Assembly: GCA_035651955.1 (NCBI GenBank)
Contig: DASRES010000039.1
Coordinates: 1-54,058 of the forward strand
DNA length: 54,058 nucleotides
Source: Acidimicrobiia bacterium
Lineage (GTDB): Bacteria; Actinomycetota; Acidimicrobiia; IMCC26256; JAMXLJ01
Reading direction: 5' to 3'
Below are positions 11,835 to 25,905 of this stretch, one piece after another. The translations under genes were made by a program, and so were the position numbers. Every line of letters starts with the position of its first letter. Position 1 is the first letter of the stretch. Under the pieces are notes generated by a model that worked only from the letters and a program-made list of their open reading frames with translations, searched no databases and was not told the DNA's origin.

Positions 11835-11855
11835 TCACGCTTCACTGAAGCGTGA
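11835..11855. repeat. Palindrome A2 overlapping the end of the metal permease gene
   Basis: TCACGCTTCA, one spacer base, then TGAAGCGTGA: perfect 10-bp arms differing from A1 by one base per arm. The permease stop codon (11842-11844 on the minus strand) lies inside it. It may be a paired operator with A1 or a 3'-end hairpin. Confidence 0.6.
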
Positions 11856-12702
11856 CCGACCGCCCGCGTACGTCCGCCCGGACCGGTCGGCGCCGCTGTC
11901 GCGCGTGATCCGCGGTCACGGCGGCGAGGTAGCACACCGCGGCTGCGGCCATGATCGAGAAGCTGGGCGGGAGGCTGCCGTCCAGGTAGCTGACGACCAA
12001 CCCGACCCAGACGACGAGCACGGCGAGCCCGCTCGAGAATGCCAGCCCGCGCCAGGGTTTGACCGTCAGCCGCCGCGCTGCGCCGGCCGGCGCGGCGAGC
12101 AACCCGACGAGCAGGAGGGCGCCGACGGCCTGGGTGGCCTCGGCCGCGCACACACCGACGAGCGCGAGGAACGCGATCCCGAGCGCGCGGACCGGCACGC
12201 CGCGCGCGTCGGCGACGGCCGCGTCCGCGCTCGCGAACAGCAAGGGCCGCGCGAGCACCAGCACGGCGAGGCAGACGGCGAGCCCGACGGCGGCGGCGAC
12301 GTAGGCGTCGTTGGCGCTGAGCCCGAAGATCGACCCGAACAGGACGCTCACGCTCTTGGTGCCGCCCGCGCTGCGTGACGACTCTGCGTAGATCGTCATG
12401 AACAGCACGCCGAGGCCGAGGACCCAGGTGAAGACGTTGCCGATGACGACGTCGTCGGGCCGGCCACGCTGGCCCAGCACGCCCATCCCCGCGCCGACCG
12501 CCACGGTCGCGACGAACAGGCCGACGCGCGGGTCGACGCCGAACGCGAGCGCGGCGAGCGCGCCCGTGAACGCCACGTGGCTCAGCGCGTCGCCGCTGAA
12601 CACCTGGCTGCGCAACACGACGAAGTACCCGACGGCGCCGCACGCGGCCGCGATGAGCGTCCCGGCGAGGAACGCGTGCTGCATGAACGGCGCGGTCAGC
12701 AC
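11842..12702 (-). CDS. Metal ABC transporter permease (ZnuB/MntB type), distal copy
   Basis: This 286-aa integral membrane protein of the ABC-3 metal permease family has about eight hydrophobic segments and the family start FMQHAFLAGTLIAAACGAVGYF. Conserved family stretches include GDALSHVAFTG and AEATQAVGALLLVGLLAAPAG. It takes a divalent ion, probably Zn or Mn, through the membrane. The GTG at 12702 overlaps the previous gene by 7 bp; the Met at 12684 is an alternative. It is the last gene of a four-gene operon (binding protein, ATPase, two permeases), so the importer probably works as a permease heterodimer. The basic tail is cytoplasmic. Confidence 0.88.
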   Translation of the reverse strand: MLTAPFMQHAFLAGTLIAAACGAVGYFVVLRSQVFSGDALSHVAFTGALAALAFGVDPRVGLFVATVAVGAGMGVLGQRGRPDDVVIGNVFTWVLGLGVLFMTIYAESSRSAGGTKSVSVLFGSIFGLSANDAYVAAAVGLAVCLAVLVLARPLLFASADAAVADARGVPVRALGIAFLALVGVCAAEATQAVGALLLVGLLAAPAGAARRLTVKPWRGLAFSSGLAVLVVWVGLVVSYLDGSLPPSFSIMAAAAVCYLAAVTADHARQRRRPVRADVRGRSVTLQ

Positions 12703-13574
12703 GTCCGCACCCCGAGTCGCGATGCGGCGTGCGCGAGCACGTACACACCGAACGCGAACGTCGTGATCCAGAACCCGATGGGGTACGACGAGAAGTACCC
12801 GATTCCGAGCCCGAGCCACGTCACCGCGACCGCGAGGACGACCGACAGGACGATCCCGCGCCCGGGGCGCGACGTCAGGCGCTGCGCCGCGGCAGGTGGC
12901 GCGACGAGCAGCGCGAAGACGAGGAGCGACCCGGTGATCTGGCTCGCCTCGGCCACCGCGACGCCGAGGACCACGAGGAAGAGCGCGGACACGAGGCGTA
13001 CGGGGAGGCCGCGCGCCTGCGCGACGTCGGCATCGACGGACGCGAACAGCAACGGCCGCGCGAGTGCCGTCAGTGCGGCGAGCGCGACGGCCGCGACGAC
13101 CGCGAGCGTCACCACCTGTGCGCTCGTGATGCCGAGGAAGCTCCCGAACAGCAGGGCGTTCGTCTCGGTGAGGAGCCCCGCGTAGAGCGTCGCGAACAGG
13201 AACCCGCACGCGAGCGCGAACGCCTGCACGGTGCCGATCGCGGCCGACTCCTCGCCCCGCGCGCGTCCTCGCCCGGTGGACGCGGCCGCGATCACGAGCG
13301 CCGCGGTCACGCAGAACGCGTAGTAGCCGAGGTTCGCGCTCACGCCGAGCCAGACCGCGCCGGCCGCGCCCGGGAAGCCGACGAGCGCGAGCGTGTGACC
13401 GGCGAACGCCTCGCGGCGGAGCACCATGAACCAGCCGATCGCGCCGGCGAGGACGGCCACGACCGCTCCCGCTCGCAACGCGTTCACCATGAACTGGTGC
13501 TGGAGGAGCTGGCGCACGTCGTCGACGAGGTTCCACGACAGGTGCGCGACGTCCGCGCCGAGCAGCGCGCTCAC
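12696..13574 (-). CDS. Metal ABC transporter permease (ZnuB/MntB type), proximal copy
   Basis: This 292-aa second ABC-3 permease is hydrophobic throughout, with a start region QHQFMVNALRAGAVVAVLAG like its neighbour and the conserved AEASQITGSLLVFALLVAPP segment. The GTG at 13574 overlaps the ATPase stop by 4 bp (GTGA). It differs from the distal permease by a longer N-terminal segment and a short cytoplasmic insert with GRGRARGEES at about residue 100. Two permease genes beside one ATPase is the arrangement known for heterodimeric manganese and zinc importers. Confidence 0.88.
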   Translation of the reverse strand: MSALLGADVAHLSWNLVDDVRQLLQHQFMVNALRAGAVVAVLAGAIGWFMVLRREAFAGHTLALVGFPGAAGAVWLGVSANLGYYAFCVTAALVIAAASTGRGRARGEESAAIGTVQAFALACGFLFATLYAGLLTETNALLFGSFLGITSAQVVTLAVVAAVALAALTALARPLLFASVDADVAQARGLPVRLVSALFLVVLGVAVAEASQITGSLLVFALLVAPPAAAQRLTSRPGRGIVLSVVLAVAVTWLGLGIGYFSSYPIGFWITTFAFGVYVLAHAASRLGVRTC

Positions 13575-14407
13575 GGATGCGGGTGTCCCGCGACGCGGTG
13601 GAGGTCGGGATGGTACGTCGCGACCTCGGGCTCGCCGACGACGACGAGCCGGCCGTCGCTCGCGTGCAGCACCTCGATCGGGGACCCGTAGAGCCGCGTG
13701 AGCGTGTCGCTCGTGATGACGTCCTCGGGCCGTCCACACCGCGCGCCACCACCCGCGAGGTACACGACGTGGTCGAGCGCGCCGACGATCGGGTTGACGT
13801 CGTGCGCGACGATCACGACGGTCACGCCCTGCTCGCGGCAGATCCGCTCGACGAGCGCCGCGACGCCGGCCTGGTTCGCGAGATCGAGGCTGTCGAGGGG
13901 TTCGTCGAGCAACAGCAGCGCGGGATCGCGCGCGAGCGCCTGCGCGATGAGGAGGCGCTGCTGCTCGCCACCGGAGCAGTCGCCGATCGGCCGGTCGGCG
14001 TAGTCGCCCGCGCCGACGAGGTCGACGAGCTCGGCGACACGCCGCCGGACGGCCCGGTCGCGTCGCGTACGGGGAAGCGGGATGCCCCACCGGTCGCCGT
14101 CGACGCCGAGACGCACGACGTCGACGCCACGGATCCGCAGGCCGGGGTCGAAGCTGCGGCGCTGGGGCAGGTACCCGATCTCTTCGCGCGCGTCACCGGG
14201 TGGTCGGCCGAGCACGCGGACGGTTCCGGCCGCGACGGGCACGACGCCGAGCAGGACCTTCAGCAGGGTGGACTTGCCGACGCCGTTCGGCCCGAGCACC
14301 GCGACGAGGTCGCCGCGCGCGATCTCGAGGTCGACGCCGCTCCAGATCGTTCGGTGGCCGACGCGCACGGCCGCCCCCCGGATCGTCACCGCGGCGTCGG
14401 CCGTCAT
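13571..14407 (-). CDS. Metal ABC transporter ATP-binding protein
   Basis: This 278-aa ABC ATPase has Walker A GPNGVGKST, a Q-loop at YLPQRRSF, the signature as CSGGEQQRLLIAQALA, Walker B LLLLDEP and the switch His in VVIVAHDVN. It powers the import complex formed by the flanking genes. The ATG at 14407 overlaps the stop of the binding-protein gene (ATGA); an upstream Met in the open frame lies inside that gene and is rejected. Signature and loop spacing are normal for ZnuC/MntA-type ATPases. Confidence 0.92.
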   Translation of the reverse strand: MTADAAVTIRGAAVRVGHRTIWSGVDLEIARGDLVAVLGPNGVGKSTLLKVLLGVVPVAAGTVRVLGRPPGDAREEIGYLPQRRSFDPGLRIRGVDVVRLGVDGDRWGIPLPRTRRDRAVRRRVAELVDLVGAGDYADRPIGDCSGGEQQRLLIAQALARDPALLLLDEPLDSLDLANQAGVAALVERICREQGVTVVIVAHDVNPIVGALDHVVYLAGGGARCGRPEDVITSDTLTRLYGSPIEVLHASDGRLVVVGEPEVATYHPDLHRVAGHPHP

Positions 14408-15327
14408 CGGTGCACCGCCGTCGCGAGCGCGTCGCGCAGTGCAACGAGTTGGCGCGTCTGCCATGCCTCGAACGTCGCTCCGCGAGGTGTCAGGGTCTCG
14501 GTCATCCGGACGACCGGGATGCGTTCGGTGCGTGCAGCGTCGACGAGGCGCTGCACGTCTGGAGTGGAGTTCTGCGGGTTGAACACGAAGACCGCGATCT
14601 GCCTGCCGGTGATCTGGCGGTCGGCCGTCCGTTTGTCAGACGCGCTGGGGTCGTTGCCCTCGGAGATCGCGTCGAGGAAGGGCACCGGCGTGGCGAGGCG
14701 GACTCCGAGCGCAGGGACGATCGGCACGACGATGCTCTCCGAGGCTCCGATCGCGACGCCACGGAACCGATCGCGAATGGAGGCGATCGTGTCGTCGTAC
14801 GCGCGCAGCCGCGTGTGCTCGAGGGTGTCGCGCTGTTGCTCGTAGTAGGCGGCGTGAGCCGGGTCGAGGCGGCCCAGGTCCCGCGCGACACGCGCGACGA
14901 ACGCGTGGACCGACGCGGGGGAGTACCACTGGTGGGGATTGCCGCCCGCGTGCACGCCGACGAGATCGCCGACGTCGAGGACGACGCGCCCGCGCTCGGG
15001 GTTCGCCGCGAGCAGCTTGCGGGCCCACGCGTCGTACCCGATGCCGTTCACCACGACGTAGTCCGCGGTCGCGAAGCGGCGCGCGTCCGCGGGGGTGGGC
15101 TCGTAGTCGTGGGGATCGACGGCGGGGTTCGTGATGATGCTGGCCACGTCGGCCTTCGTCCCGGCGATCTGTGCGACGAGGCTTCCCCAGGTGTTCTCGG
15201 CCGCGACGACCGCGAGCCGCCCGCCCGCCCCGGCCGACGGCGAGCCGCCGACACGGCAACCGCCCAGCGCGACGGCGCACGTCGCGAGCAGGGCGGTCGC
15301 GAGGGGAATGAGGCTCGTTCTCACCAT
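14404..15327 (-). CDS. Metal-binding lipoprotein of ABC importer (ZnuA/PsaA type)
   Basis: This 307-aa substrate-binding protein carries a lipoprotein signal peptide: hydrophobic MVRTSLIPLATALLATCAVA, then lipobox LGGC with Cys24 as the lipidated residue. Family metal-site motifs include DPHDYEP (first His) and GNPHQWYSP (second His). A later Glu/Asp-rich segment, AISEGNDPSASD, probably helps the site. It lacks the long His-rich loop typical of many zinc-specific ZnuA proteins, so Mn is also possible. It is the first gene of the operon and diverges from the Fur-family regulator, with operator-like boxes between them. The ATG at 15327 is overlapped by one of those boxes. Confidence 0.88.
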   Translation of the reverse strand: MVRTSLIPLATALLATCAVALGGCRVGGSPSAGAGGRLAVVAAENTWGSLVAQIAGTKADVASIITNPAVDPHDYEPTPADARRFATADYVVVNGIGYDAWARKLLAANPERGRVVLDVGDLVGVHAGGNPHQWYSPASVHAFVARVARDLGRLDPAHAAYYEQQRDTLEHTRLRAYDDTIASIRDRFRGVAIGASESIVVPIVPALGVRLATPVPFLDAISEGNDPSASDKRTADRQITGRQIAVFVFNPQNSTPDVQRLVDAARTERIPVVRMTETLTPRGATFEAWQTRQLVALRDALATAVHR

Positions 15328-15383
15328 GGCGAACGTACGAGACTGAGTCTCATTCGGTCAAGCGAACGAGAACCAACCTCATT
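15307..15383. promoter_or_regulatory. Three Fur/Zur-type operator boxes at 29-bp spacing
   Basis: Three related 19-bp imperfect palindromes lie at 15307-15325, 15336-15354 and 15365-15383. The middle one is TACGAGACTGAGTCTCATT, with perfect 6-bp inner arms GAGACT and AGTCTC. The right copy is AACGAGAACCAACCTCATT, and the left copy reads AATGAGGCTCGTTCTCACC. Their centres are exactly 29 bp apart. They occupy the intergenic region and the start of the binding-protein gene, where a Fur-family repressor encoded next door would control both directions. Binding is inferred, not shown. Confidence 0.6.
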
Positions 15384-15402: not shown

Positions 15403-15408
15403 TATGAT
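15403..15408 (+). promoter_or_regulatory. Putative -10 element of the Fur-family regulator gene
   Basis: TATGAT ends 6 bp before the GTG start codon at 15415, which places transcription initiation at or next to the start codon. This fits a leaderless mRNA, common in actinobacteria. There is no ribosome binding site at normal spacing. Confidence 0.45.
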
Positions 15409-15414
15409 CGCGAG

Positions 15415-15855
15415 GTGTCGCCCGACGTCCACGAAGCCGCAGGCGCGCGGCTGCGCGCGCTGGACGGCCGCTACACGGACGCGCGACGGAGGCTGGTCGA
15501 GGTCCTCGCCGCGGCCGGGCAGCCGTTGACGGTCGGGGAGATCGTCGAGCGCAGTGCACTCCCGGTCAGCTCGGTCTACCGGAACCTCACGGTGCTCGAG
15601 GAGGCCGGGCTCGTGCACCGGCTCGCCGGTCACACCGAGTTCACGCGCTTCGAGCTGGCGGAGGACCTGCTCGGCCACCATCACCACCTCGCGTGCACCG
15701 CGTGCGGCGCGATGACCGACGTCCGCCTGCCGGCGGCCGTCGAGGCGGAGCTCACCCGTGCGCTCGCGCGGGTCGCGCGCCGTCAGCGGTTCTCGATCGA
15801 CGCGCACCGGCTCGACGTCGTCGGCCTCTGCGCGTCCTGCGCGACGACGGGCTGA
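15415..15855 (+). CDS. Fur-family metalloregulator (Zur-like)
   Basis: This 146-aa protein has an N-terminal winged helix (PVSSVYRNLTVLEEAGLV is the recognition region, about residues 50-67) and a C-terminal dimerisation and metal domain. The His run at 88-91 and the CxxC pairs Cys94/Cys97 and Cys139/Cys142 give the structural zinc site and likely sensory ligands. It is divergent from a Zn/Mn importer operon, which argues for Zur or Mur rather than iron Fur. It lies downstream of three operator-like boxes, so autoregulation is likely. The start is GTG, apparently leaderless. Confidence 0.85.
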   Translation: MSPDVHEAAGARLRALDGRYTDARRRLVEVLAAAGQPLTVGEIVERSALPVSSVYRNLTVLEEAGLVHRLAGHTEFTRFELAEDLLGHHHHLACTACGAMTDVRLPAAVEAELTRALARVARRQRFSIDAHRLDVVGLCASCATTG

Positions 15856-25103: not shown

Positions 25104-25206
25104 CCGCTCAAGCCCCTGGTAGCGGGCACCGATAACCAGCTCAGCGAGTCTCAGGAAAAAGGCAAACCCGCCGGGAGGCGGGGACGCAAAGTCACGGGGC
25201 CCATCC
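25104..25206 (+). promoter_or_regulatory. GEMM-I (c-di-GMP-I) riboswitch, arms in permuted order
   Basis: The P2 arm is unmistakable: GGCAAACC (25161-25168), a 6-bp stem CCCGCC/GGCGGG capped by GNRA loop GGGA (25167-25182), then GACGCAAAGTC (25183-25193). A P3-like arm with GGTAGCGGGCACCGAT (25118-25133) lies 5' of it rather than 3'. Between them CCAG-CTC / GAG-T-CT-CA-GG (25136-25155) closes a P1-like hairpin. Nucleotides equivalent to the three ligand contacts are present: G25162 (G, not A, so c-di-GMP rather than cGAMP), A25189 and C25129. It lies about 140 nt upstream of the pilin start codon. The class assignment is strong; the permutation is inferred from arm order. Confidence 0.8.
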
Positions 25207-25344
25207 CGCCTCGCCGACGACGGCGTGACGGACGGCCGGCCGGACTACCCCGAGGACGTGAACCCCGGTGACGGGGGGAGCCCGACGGGCGAGACCACGG
25301 ACTCGCACCCGGAACATCCCGACCCATCACAAGGGGGCACGCGA

Positions 25345-25905
25345 GTGCTGCAGAACACCCTGAAGAACCTCAGGGCCCGTCGTGACGGGGAGGAGGGGTT
25401 CACGCTCATCGAGCTCATGGTCGTGGTGCTGATCATTGCCATCCTCATCGCCATCGCCATCCCCACCTTCCTCGGTGCGAAGAGCCGGGCCCAGGACAAG
25501 CAGGCACAGTCCGACGTGCGGAACGCGCTGACGGCTGCGAAGACGGTCTTCACCGACGCGCAGACGTACGCCAACGCCACGGGCACGGCGACGAACCCGA
25601 ACACGAGCACGGCGGGGATGTCGCAGGTCGAGCCGTCGTTGAACTACGACCTGACGCAGTCGACGGACCCGAAGACGGTTGCCGTCGAGGCGATCTCGAC
25701 GGGCGCGAACGGTTCGACGTACGACGAGATCCTCCTCGTCGCCCGTTCGAACGACAACAAGTGCTGGGCGATCAGCGACATCCAGGGCGCCGCGGCGCCT
25801 CAGGGTCGCACCGTCGGCACGGCGTACGCGTCGTTCGGTGACACGAACGGTGCGTGCACGCTCCAGGCGGCGAGCAACGCGACCTGGGCGAGCGCCTGGT
25901 CGTAA
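25345..25905 (+). CDS. Type IV major pilin-like prepilin
   Basis: This 186-aa prepilin has an 18-residue basic leader, the cleavage site G18 before FTLIELMVVVLIIAILIAIA and the conserved Glu at mature position 5, followed by the hydrophobic alpha-1 helix. The globular part contains two Cys (in NKCWAISD and NGACTLQ), likely a C-terminal disulfide. GTG 25345 is preferred, with AAGGGGG 7 bp upstream; the open frame back to 25225 is Pro/Gly/Asp-rich and would spoil the leader. It lies downstream of a GEMM-I riboswitch and is closed by a strong hairpin. The prepilin peptidase is encoded nearby. Confidence 0.92.
   Translation: MLQNTLKNLRARRDGEEGFTLIELMVVVLIIAILIAIAIPTFLGAKSRAQDKQAQSDVRNALTAAKTVFTDAQTYANATGTATNPNTSTAGMSQVEPSLNYDLTQSTDPKTVAVEAISTGANGSTYDEILLVARSNDNKCWAISDIQGAAAPQGRTVGTAYASFGDTNGACTLQAASNATWASAWS

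Follow-up and report, generated by a model that had tools for sequence, protein, structure and literature searches.

A candidate class-wide operator of Acidimicrobiia that separates a ZnuA-type importer operon from the divergent gene of a Fur-family regulator

The closest described systems are the actinobacterial Zur repressors (S. coelicolor Zur, M. tuberculosis FurB, and C. glutamicum Zur; PMC2823685, PMC6103462). These proteins have the Fur fold and recognize 7-1-7 palindromes with a 1-bp centre, their boxes overlap znuABC-type promoters and leaderless starts, autoregulation is known, and S. coelicolor Zur has more than one box at znuA. In C. glutamicum the Zur boxes lie over core promoters, and three of the transcripts have no leader (PMC2823685). 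A sensory cysteine is essential in both E. coli Zur (C88) and S. coelicolor Zur (C79), where it belongs to a mixed N/O/S site (PMC6103462). E. coli Zur represses a ZnuABC-type importer at a box, TRWNAYRWTATAWYRTNWCA, that is occupied by two adjacent dimers with high cooperativity (PMC6103462). Proteobacterial Fur and Mur have sensor residues with only N and O ligands and two CxxC motifs, and the sites of A. baumannii Fur include TGAGAAT half-sites (PMC3055841).

The locus described here resembles the actinobacterial systems in the fold of its regulator, the 7-1-7 geometry of its boxes, and the presence of several boxes at one importer. As with Zur, its predicted operator sits at a znuABC promoter, judged by sequence only. 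It differs from them in its box and its regulator. The box has G rather than A at position 4 (TGAGAAY vs TGAAAAT) and does not match the S. coelicolor Zur consensus TGAAAATGATTTTCA (PMC2823685), and the regulator has no sensory cysteine. The sensor residues of the regulator (E80, HHHH, E110, and H131) and its two CxxC motifs are of the proteobacterial Fur/Mur kind, but its predicted target is a ZnuA-family ABC importer, and no iron-gene target was seen. The likeness to E. coli Zur is confined to control of a ZnuABC-type importer; there is no evidence in the window for cooperativity of the E. coli kind. Autoregulated, Zur-like control of a divergently transcribed importer is thus an arrangement already known. 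What appears to be new is the class-wide definition of the operator, its association with a clade of regulators lacking the sensory cysteine, and one suggestive case of a regulator/operator swap. An open-access literature search found no paper on Acidimicrobi* with Zur and zinc uptake.

Three boxes between the importer operon and the regulator gene

In the window, the whole stretch of 54,058 nucleotides that was analysed, the interval from a minus-strand ZnuA-type importer operon to a divergent plus-strand gene for a Fur-family regulator contains three imperfect 7-1-7 palindromes, with centres at 15316, 15345, and 15374. The two start codons are separated by 87 bp. The features of the locus are as follows, with box sequences read towards znuA.

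11842..12720, minus strand: ABC-3 permease 2, start approximate
12696..13568, minus strand: ABC-3 permease 1, start approximate
13571..14464, minus strand: importer ABC ATPase, true start probably near 14407
14404..15327, minus strand: metal-binding lipoprotein of the ZnuA family (PF01297), His-His-Glu type
15307..15325: box 1, 19 bp, core 15309-15323, centre 15316, TGAGAACGAGCCTCA, matrix score 16.15 (rank 3)
15332..15337, minus strand: putative -10 of the importer operon, TACGTT, 18-bp spacer, placed by eye (TAAGTT in the sister species)
15336..15354: box 2, core 15338-15352, centre 15345, TGAGACTCAGTCTCG, matrix score 20.78
15356..15361, minus strand: putative -35 of the importer operon, TTGACC, placed by eye (TTGCAG at the same place in the sister species)
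15365..15383: box 3, core 15367-15381, centre 15374, TGAGGTTGGTTCTCG, matrix score 20.75
15403..15408, plus strand: putative -10 of the regulator gene, TATGAT, 6 bp before the GTG start, placed by eye
15415..15855, plus strand: Fur-family regulator (PF01475), 146 aa, Zur-like clade of Acidimicrobiia

The core of box 2, GAGACTGAGTCTC, is a perfect 6-1-6 palindrome. Boxes 1 and 3 clearly depart from perfect symmetry, and each retains one good half-site (TGAGAAC; GTTCTC). Box 1 covers the first codons of the first gene of the importer operon, and its core lies just within the coding sequence. Box 2 occupies the spacer that separates the two putative hexamers of the importer promoter, and box 3 borders on the probable -35 region of the regulator. 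A strict sigma-70 consensus scan found no promoter and did not return the importer hexamers. The placement of these hexamers puts the transcript start at or beside the ATG, which would make the importer mRNA leaderless. No Rfam RNA element was found at the site of the boxes.

A scanning matrix was trained on 20 boxes that precede ZnuA genes elsewhere in the order, none of them from the genus of the window. This matrix ranks the three boxes first to third among the 54,058 positions of the window (20.78, 20.75, and 16.15 bits), and the best independent position after them scores 5.6. Among about 100,000 background positions, none scored as high as any of the three. The bare half-site pattern YGAG-N7-CTCR was not enriched, with 13 occurrences in the window vs 12.3 ± 3.6 in first-order simulations, and an equally spaced triple of half-sites arose in 0 of 200 such simulations. 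These data confirm that the three boxes are more than chance; the matrix test is decisive and far stronger than the half-site simulation. A preliminary description of this DNA had placed three Fur-type boxes between a metal importer operon and the gene of its regulator, with one over the start codon of the importer and another upstream of the -10 of the regulator. Its coordinates were right, and the setting and both placements are supported.

The three boxes do not stand on equal footing. In the sister species, boxes 2 and 3 stand out as islands of conservation, and box 1 less clearly so. The core of box 1 is part of the importer coding region, and its conservation is hard to separate from that of the codons. 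One alternative is that the operators are boxes 2 and 3 only and that box 1 is a coincidence of signal-peptide codons. Box 1 has the lowest score of the three, and the corresponding stretch of the sister species scores only 8.3 in register and 13-14 when shifted. However, box 1 is still the third-best position of the window and is unmatched by any background position. Boxes that act as roadblocks within transcribed regions are known for Fur-family regulators. We consider the coincidence doubtful and retain box 1 as a probable operator.

The box across the order and the class

The box is widespread among relatives. A box scoring at least 16 was found near the start of 25 of the 28 ZnuA-family loci of the order, with the tested genus left out of the matrix each time. 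A search of 58 genomes of the order for TGAGAAYNRTTCTCA with at most one mismatch returned 49 sites vs 12 for the reversed control. About half of these sites are at a znu or regulator start (21 of the 45 classified, plus four seen at znuA). Position 4 of the box is G in 93% of the arms from other genera. Across the class, the exact motif was present in 69 of 395 genomes vs one control match, and 24 of the 30 loci that were fetched have it at a znu or regulator start. Many of these class-wide loci have the architecture of the window: the same regulator is transcribed divergently from znuA, with the box 33-38 bp ahead of the regulator gene.

These comparisons define the predicted operator as a class-wide Acidimicrobiia motif, TGAGAAY-N-RTTCTCA, of which the boxes of the window are members. 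It differs from the actinobacterial Zur box by one base per arm. The GAGACT/AGTCTC core of the window reads as a divergent genus-level form of box 2 only. GAGACTNAGTCTC was rejected as an order-wide motif; the relatives have GAGAAY. The earlier suggestion of a lineage-specific operator unlike the known Zur box therefore stands as far as the difference goes, but the lineage is the whole class and the motif is TGAGAAY-N-RTTCTCA rather than the GAGACT core.

The other-genera matrix picks exactly these three boxes, and across relatives the box is associated with importer genes and with the regulator clade. We favor, with a probability of roughly 0.8, the reading that the boxes are the operator of an autoregulated, metal-dependent, Zur-like Fur-family repressor that controls the importer. 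The motif and its candidate cognate regulator would provide a testable system for metal uptake in a large and mostly uncultured class.

The znuA-box-regulator unit is also kept in genus g36 of another order (L184-L196), whose genomes are about 1 Mb, with a perfect TGAGAATAATTCTCA-type box; one member (G107, L193) has two boxes 22 bp apart.

The regulator and the metal

The regulator matches PF01475 with 61.3 bits (cut-off 23.1), and its Fur domain consists of a winged helix and a dimerisation domain. Its AlphaFold model matches Fur structures over 125-139 residues with Z scores of 12-15, and the best match (VIA-align) has a Z score of 14.9 and an rmsd of 2.7 over 139 residues. The closest solved structure does not discriminate among metals: Fur, PerR, Mur, and Zur all match the model. 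None of the NCBIfam models for Zur, Fur, PerR, and AztC came near its cut-off, and the identity to solved actinobacterial Zurs is about 23-30% by structural alignment. The genome has only two Fur-family genes at the search threshold, and the other one adjoins rubrerythrin, which makes the window regulator the natural candidate for the boxes.

Most genomes of the order have a member of the regulator clade, usually about 40-55% identical, and in many of these genomes the regulator is unlinked to znu. The invariant residues of the clade are E80, HHHH88-91, E110, H131, and the two CxxC motifs. C94, C97, C139, and C142, which form the structural CxxC...CxxC zinc site, are invariant in 21 orthologues. 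They are the only cysteines of the window regulator, and no further conserved cysteine was found among the aligned orthologues. The sensory cysteine is thus absent, and by that feature the protein is not a standard Zur. Many regulator orthologues that are unlinked to znu (e.g. L010, L012, L013, L019, L021, L023, and L024) share a GGTACACT-like element shortly before the start codon, possibly the conserved -10 of a short-leader promoter.

One member of the order, G044, departs from this pattern. We did not detect a close orthologue of the clade regulator in its genome. Its znu locus (L056, L197), of the His-His-Glu type, contains a Cys-bearing Zur-like protein and an A-type box, TGAAAACCGTTTTCA, that resembles the S. 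coelicolor Zur consensus. This is the single case in which the A-type box was seen. G044 is a possible regulator/operator swap. A broader reading is that in Acidimicrobiia a Cys-less Fur-family clade replaces the actinobacterial Zur as the repressor of zinc uptake, with regulator and operator changed together: G with the clade, A in G044, and the GAGACT drift in the genus of the window. We put this forward tentatively, at a little short of even odds.

The metal is more likely to be zinc than manganese or iron, and we regard zinc as probable. The ligands of the binding protein by alignment are H73, H132, E197, and E277, and the third ligand is Glu, not His. No PF01297 protein other than this lipoprotein was found in the genome, and the solved proteins nearest to it in sequence include the FpvC type (6ru4), YfeA, and PsaA. 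The alternative is the same circuit responding to Mn2+ (or Fe2+), with a Mur-like regulator of a manganese or iron importer. The His-His-Glu ligand set is that of manganese and iron proteins, the nearest solved sequences are of that type, the sensor site of the regulator must be N/O only because there is no spare cysteine, and Mur, which regulates manganese uptake, is one of the closest folds. Three observations tip the balance towards zinc. In other genomes of the order the box also stands before genes for His3 ZnuA-type binding proteins, the genome of the window has other candidates for manganese and iron in two Nramp genes and one DtxR gene, and G044 pairs its Cys-bearing Zur-like protein with the same His-His-Glu type of znu locus. 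No boxes were found at the Nramp, ZIP, or DtxR genes of the genome. These data make the manganese or iron circuit unlikely. If the metal is zinc, the locus raises the question of how zinc is recognized by a Fur-family protein that lacks the cysteine on which characterised Zurs depend, and it offers a possible natural case of joint regulator and operator change. A ZIP-family gene adjoins a DtxR-family repressor gene in the same genome (G000:C50:23702-24760; L165, L166).

Predicted control, box spacing, and other sites

The repressor reading predicts the following circuit. With ample metal, most likely Zn2+, dimers of the regulator loaded with it would bind the boxes. Occupation of box 2 between the -35 and -10 would block the importer promoter. 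A second block would come from box 1, which lies at the start codon of the probably leaderless mRNA. Box 3, at the regulator's promoter, would let the regulator repress its own gene. When the metal is scarce, the dimers would leave, and the importer and the regulator would both be expressed. The analysis shows the boxes, their conservation, and their association with importer genes and with this regulator clade; we infer direct binding, repression, the leaderless start, and the metal.

The boxes had been described as exactly 29 bp apart, with the regular spacing taken to suggest cooperative binding. The 29/29 spacing is correct for the window, but it is not a conserved feature: the sister species has 26 and 31 bp (37 via the best-scoring register of box 1). 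Elsewhere, multi-box promoters have spacings of 22-35 bp (22, 24, 34, and 35 in the two-box cases), and most promoters have a single box. Spacing was rejected as a functional signal because of the sister species, and the 29/29 interval is a property of the window's genome that does not support cooperative binding. Where a promoter has two Zur boxes, independent action is considered the most likely (PMC6103462). A cooperative array of three boxes at a fixed 29-bp spacing is therefore very improbable, even though both intervals are exactly 29 bp, the simulations never produced an equally spaced triple of the half-site pattern, and S. coelicolor Zur on DNA was solved as a trimer of dimers (title of entry 7vo0).

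Many relatives carry this box before their importer genes, and a motif scan for other zinc or manganese genes had been proposed as a check on the boxes. It gave no further convincing site in the window's own genome. Two whole-genome pattern searches (4.1 Mb), which covered sites with at most three mismatches, returned 7 sites vs 5 for the control and 36 vs 20 for the control. The best site outside the znu region scored 14.4 among the loci examined, and the six best others were all in coding sequence. No ribosomal-protein or COG0523 target with a box was seen in the genome among sites with at most three mismatches.

Three loci in other genomes carry the box near different genes. It lies 27 bp before an FAD/NAD(P)-binding oxidoreductase gene transcribed divergently from a regulator copy (L093:1501-2757, G032), a possible extra target. 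It lies 39 bp before a WhiB gene (L085:1193-1510, G017) and 107 bp before a gene for a zinc-type alcohol dehydrogenase (L121:1509-2695, G038). The adhA gene belongs to actinobacterial Zur regulons (PMC2823685).

Elsewhere in the window, a c-di-GMP-I riboswitch (Rfam RF01051, 52 bits) is located at 25151-25252 on the plus strand. It directly precedes a type IV pilin-like ORF (25225-25905) and overlaps the listed start of that ORF.
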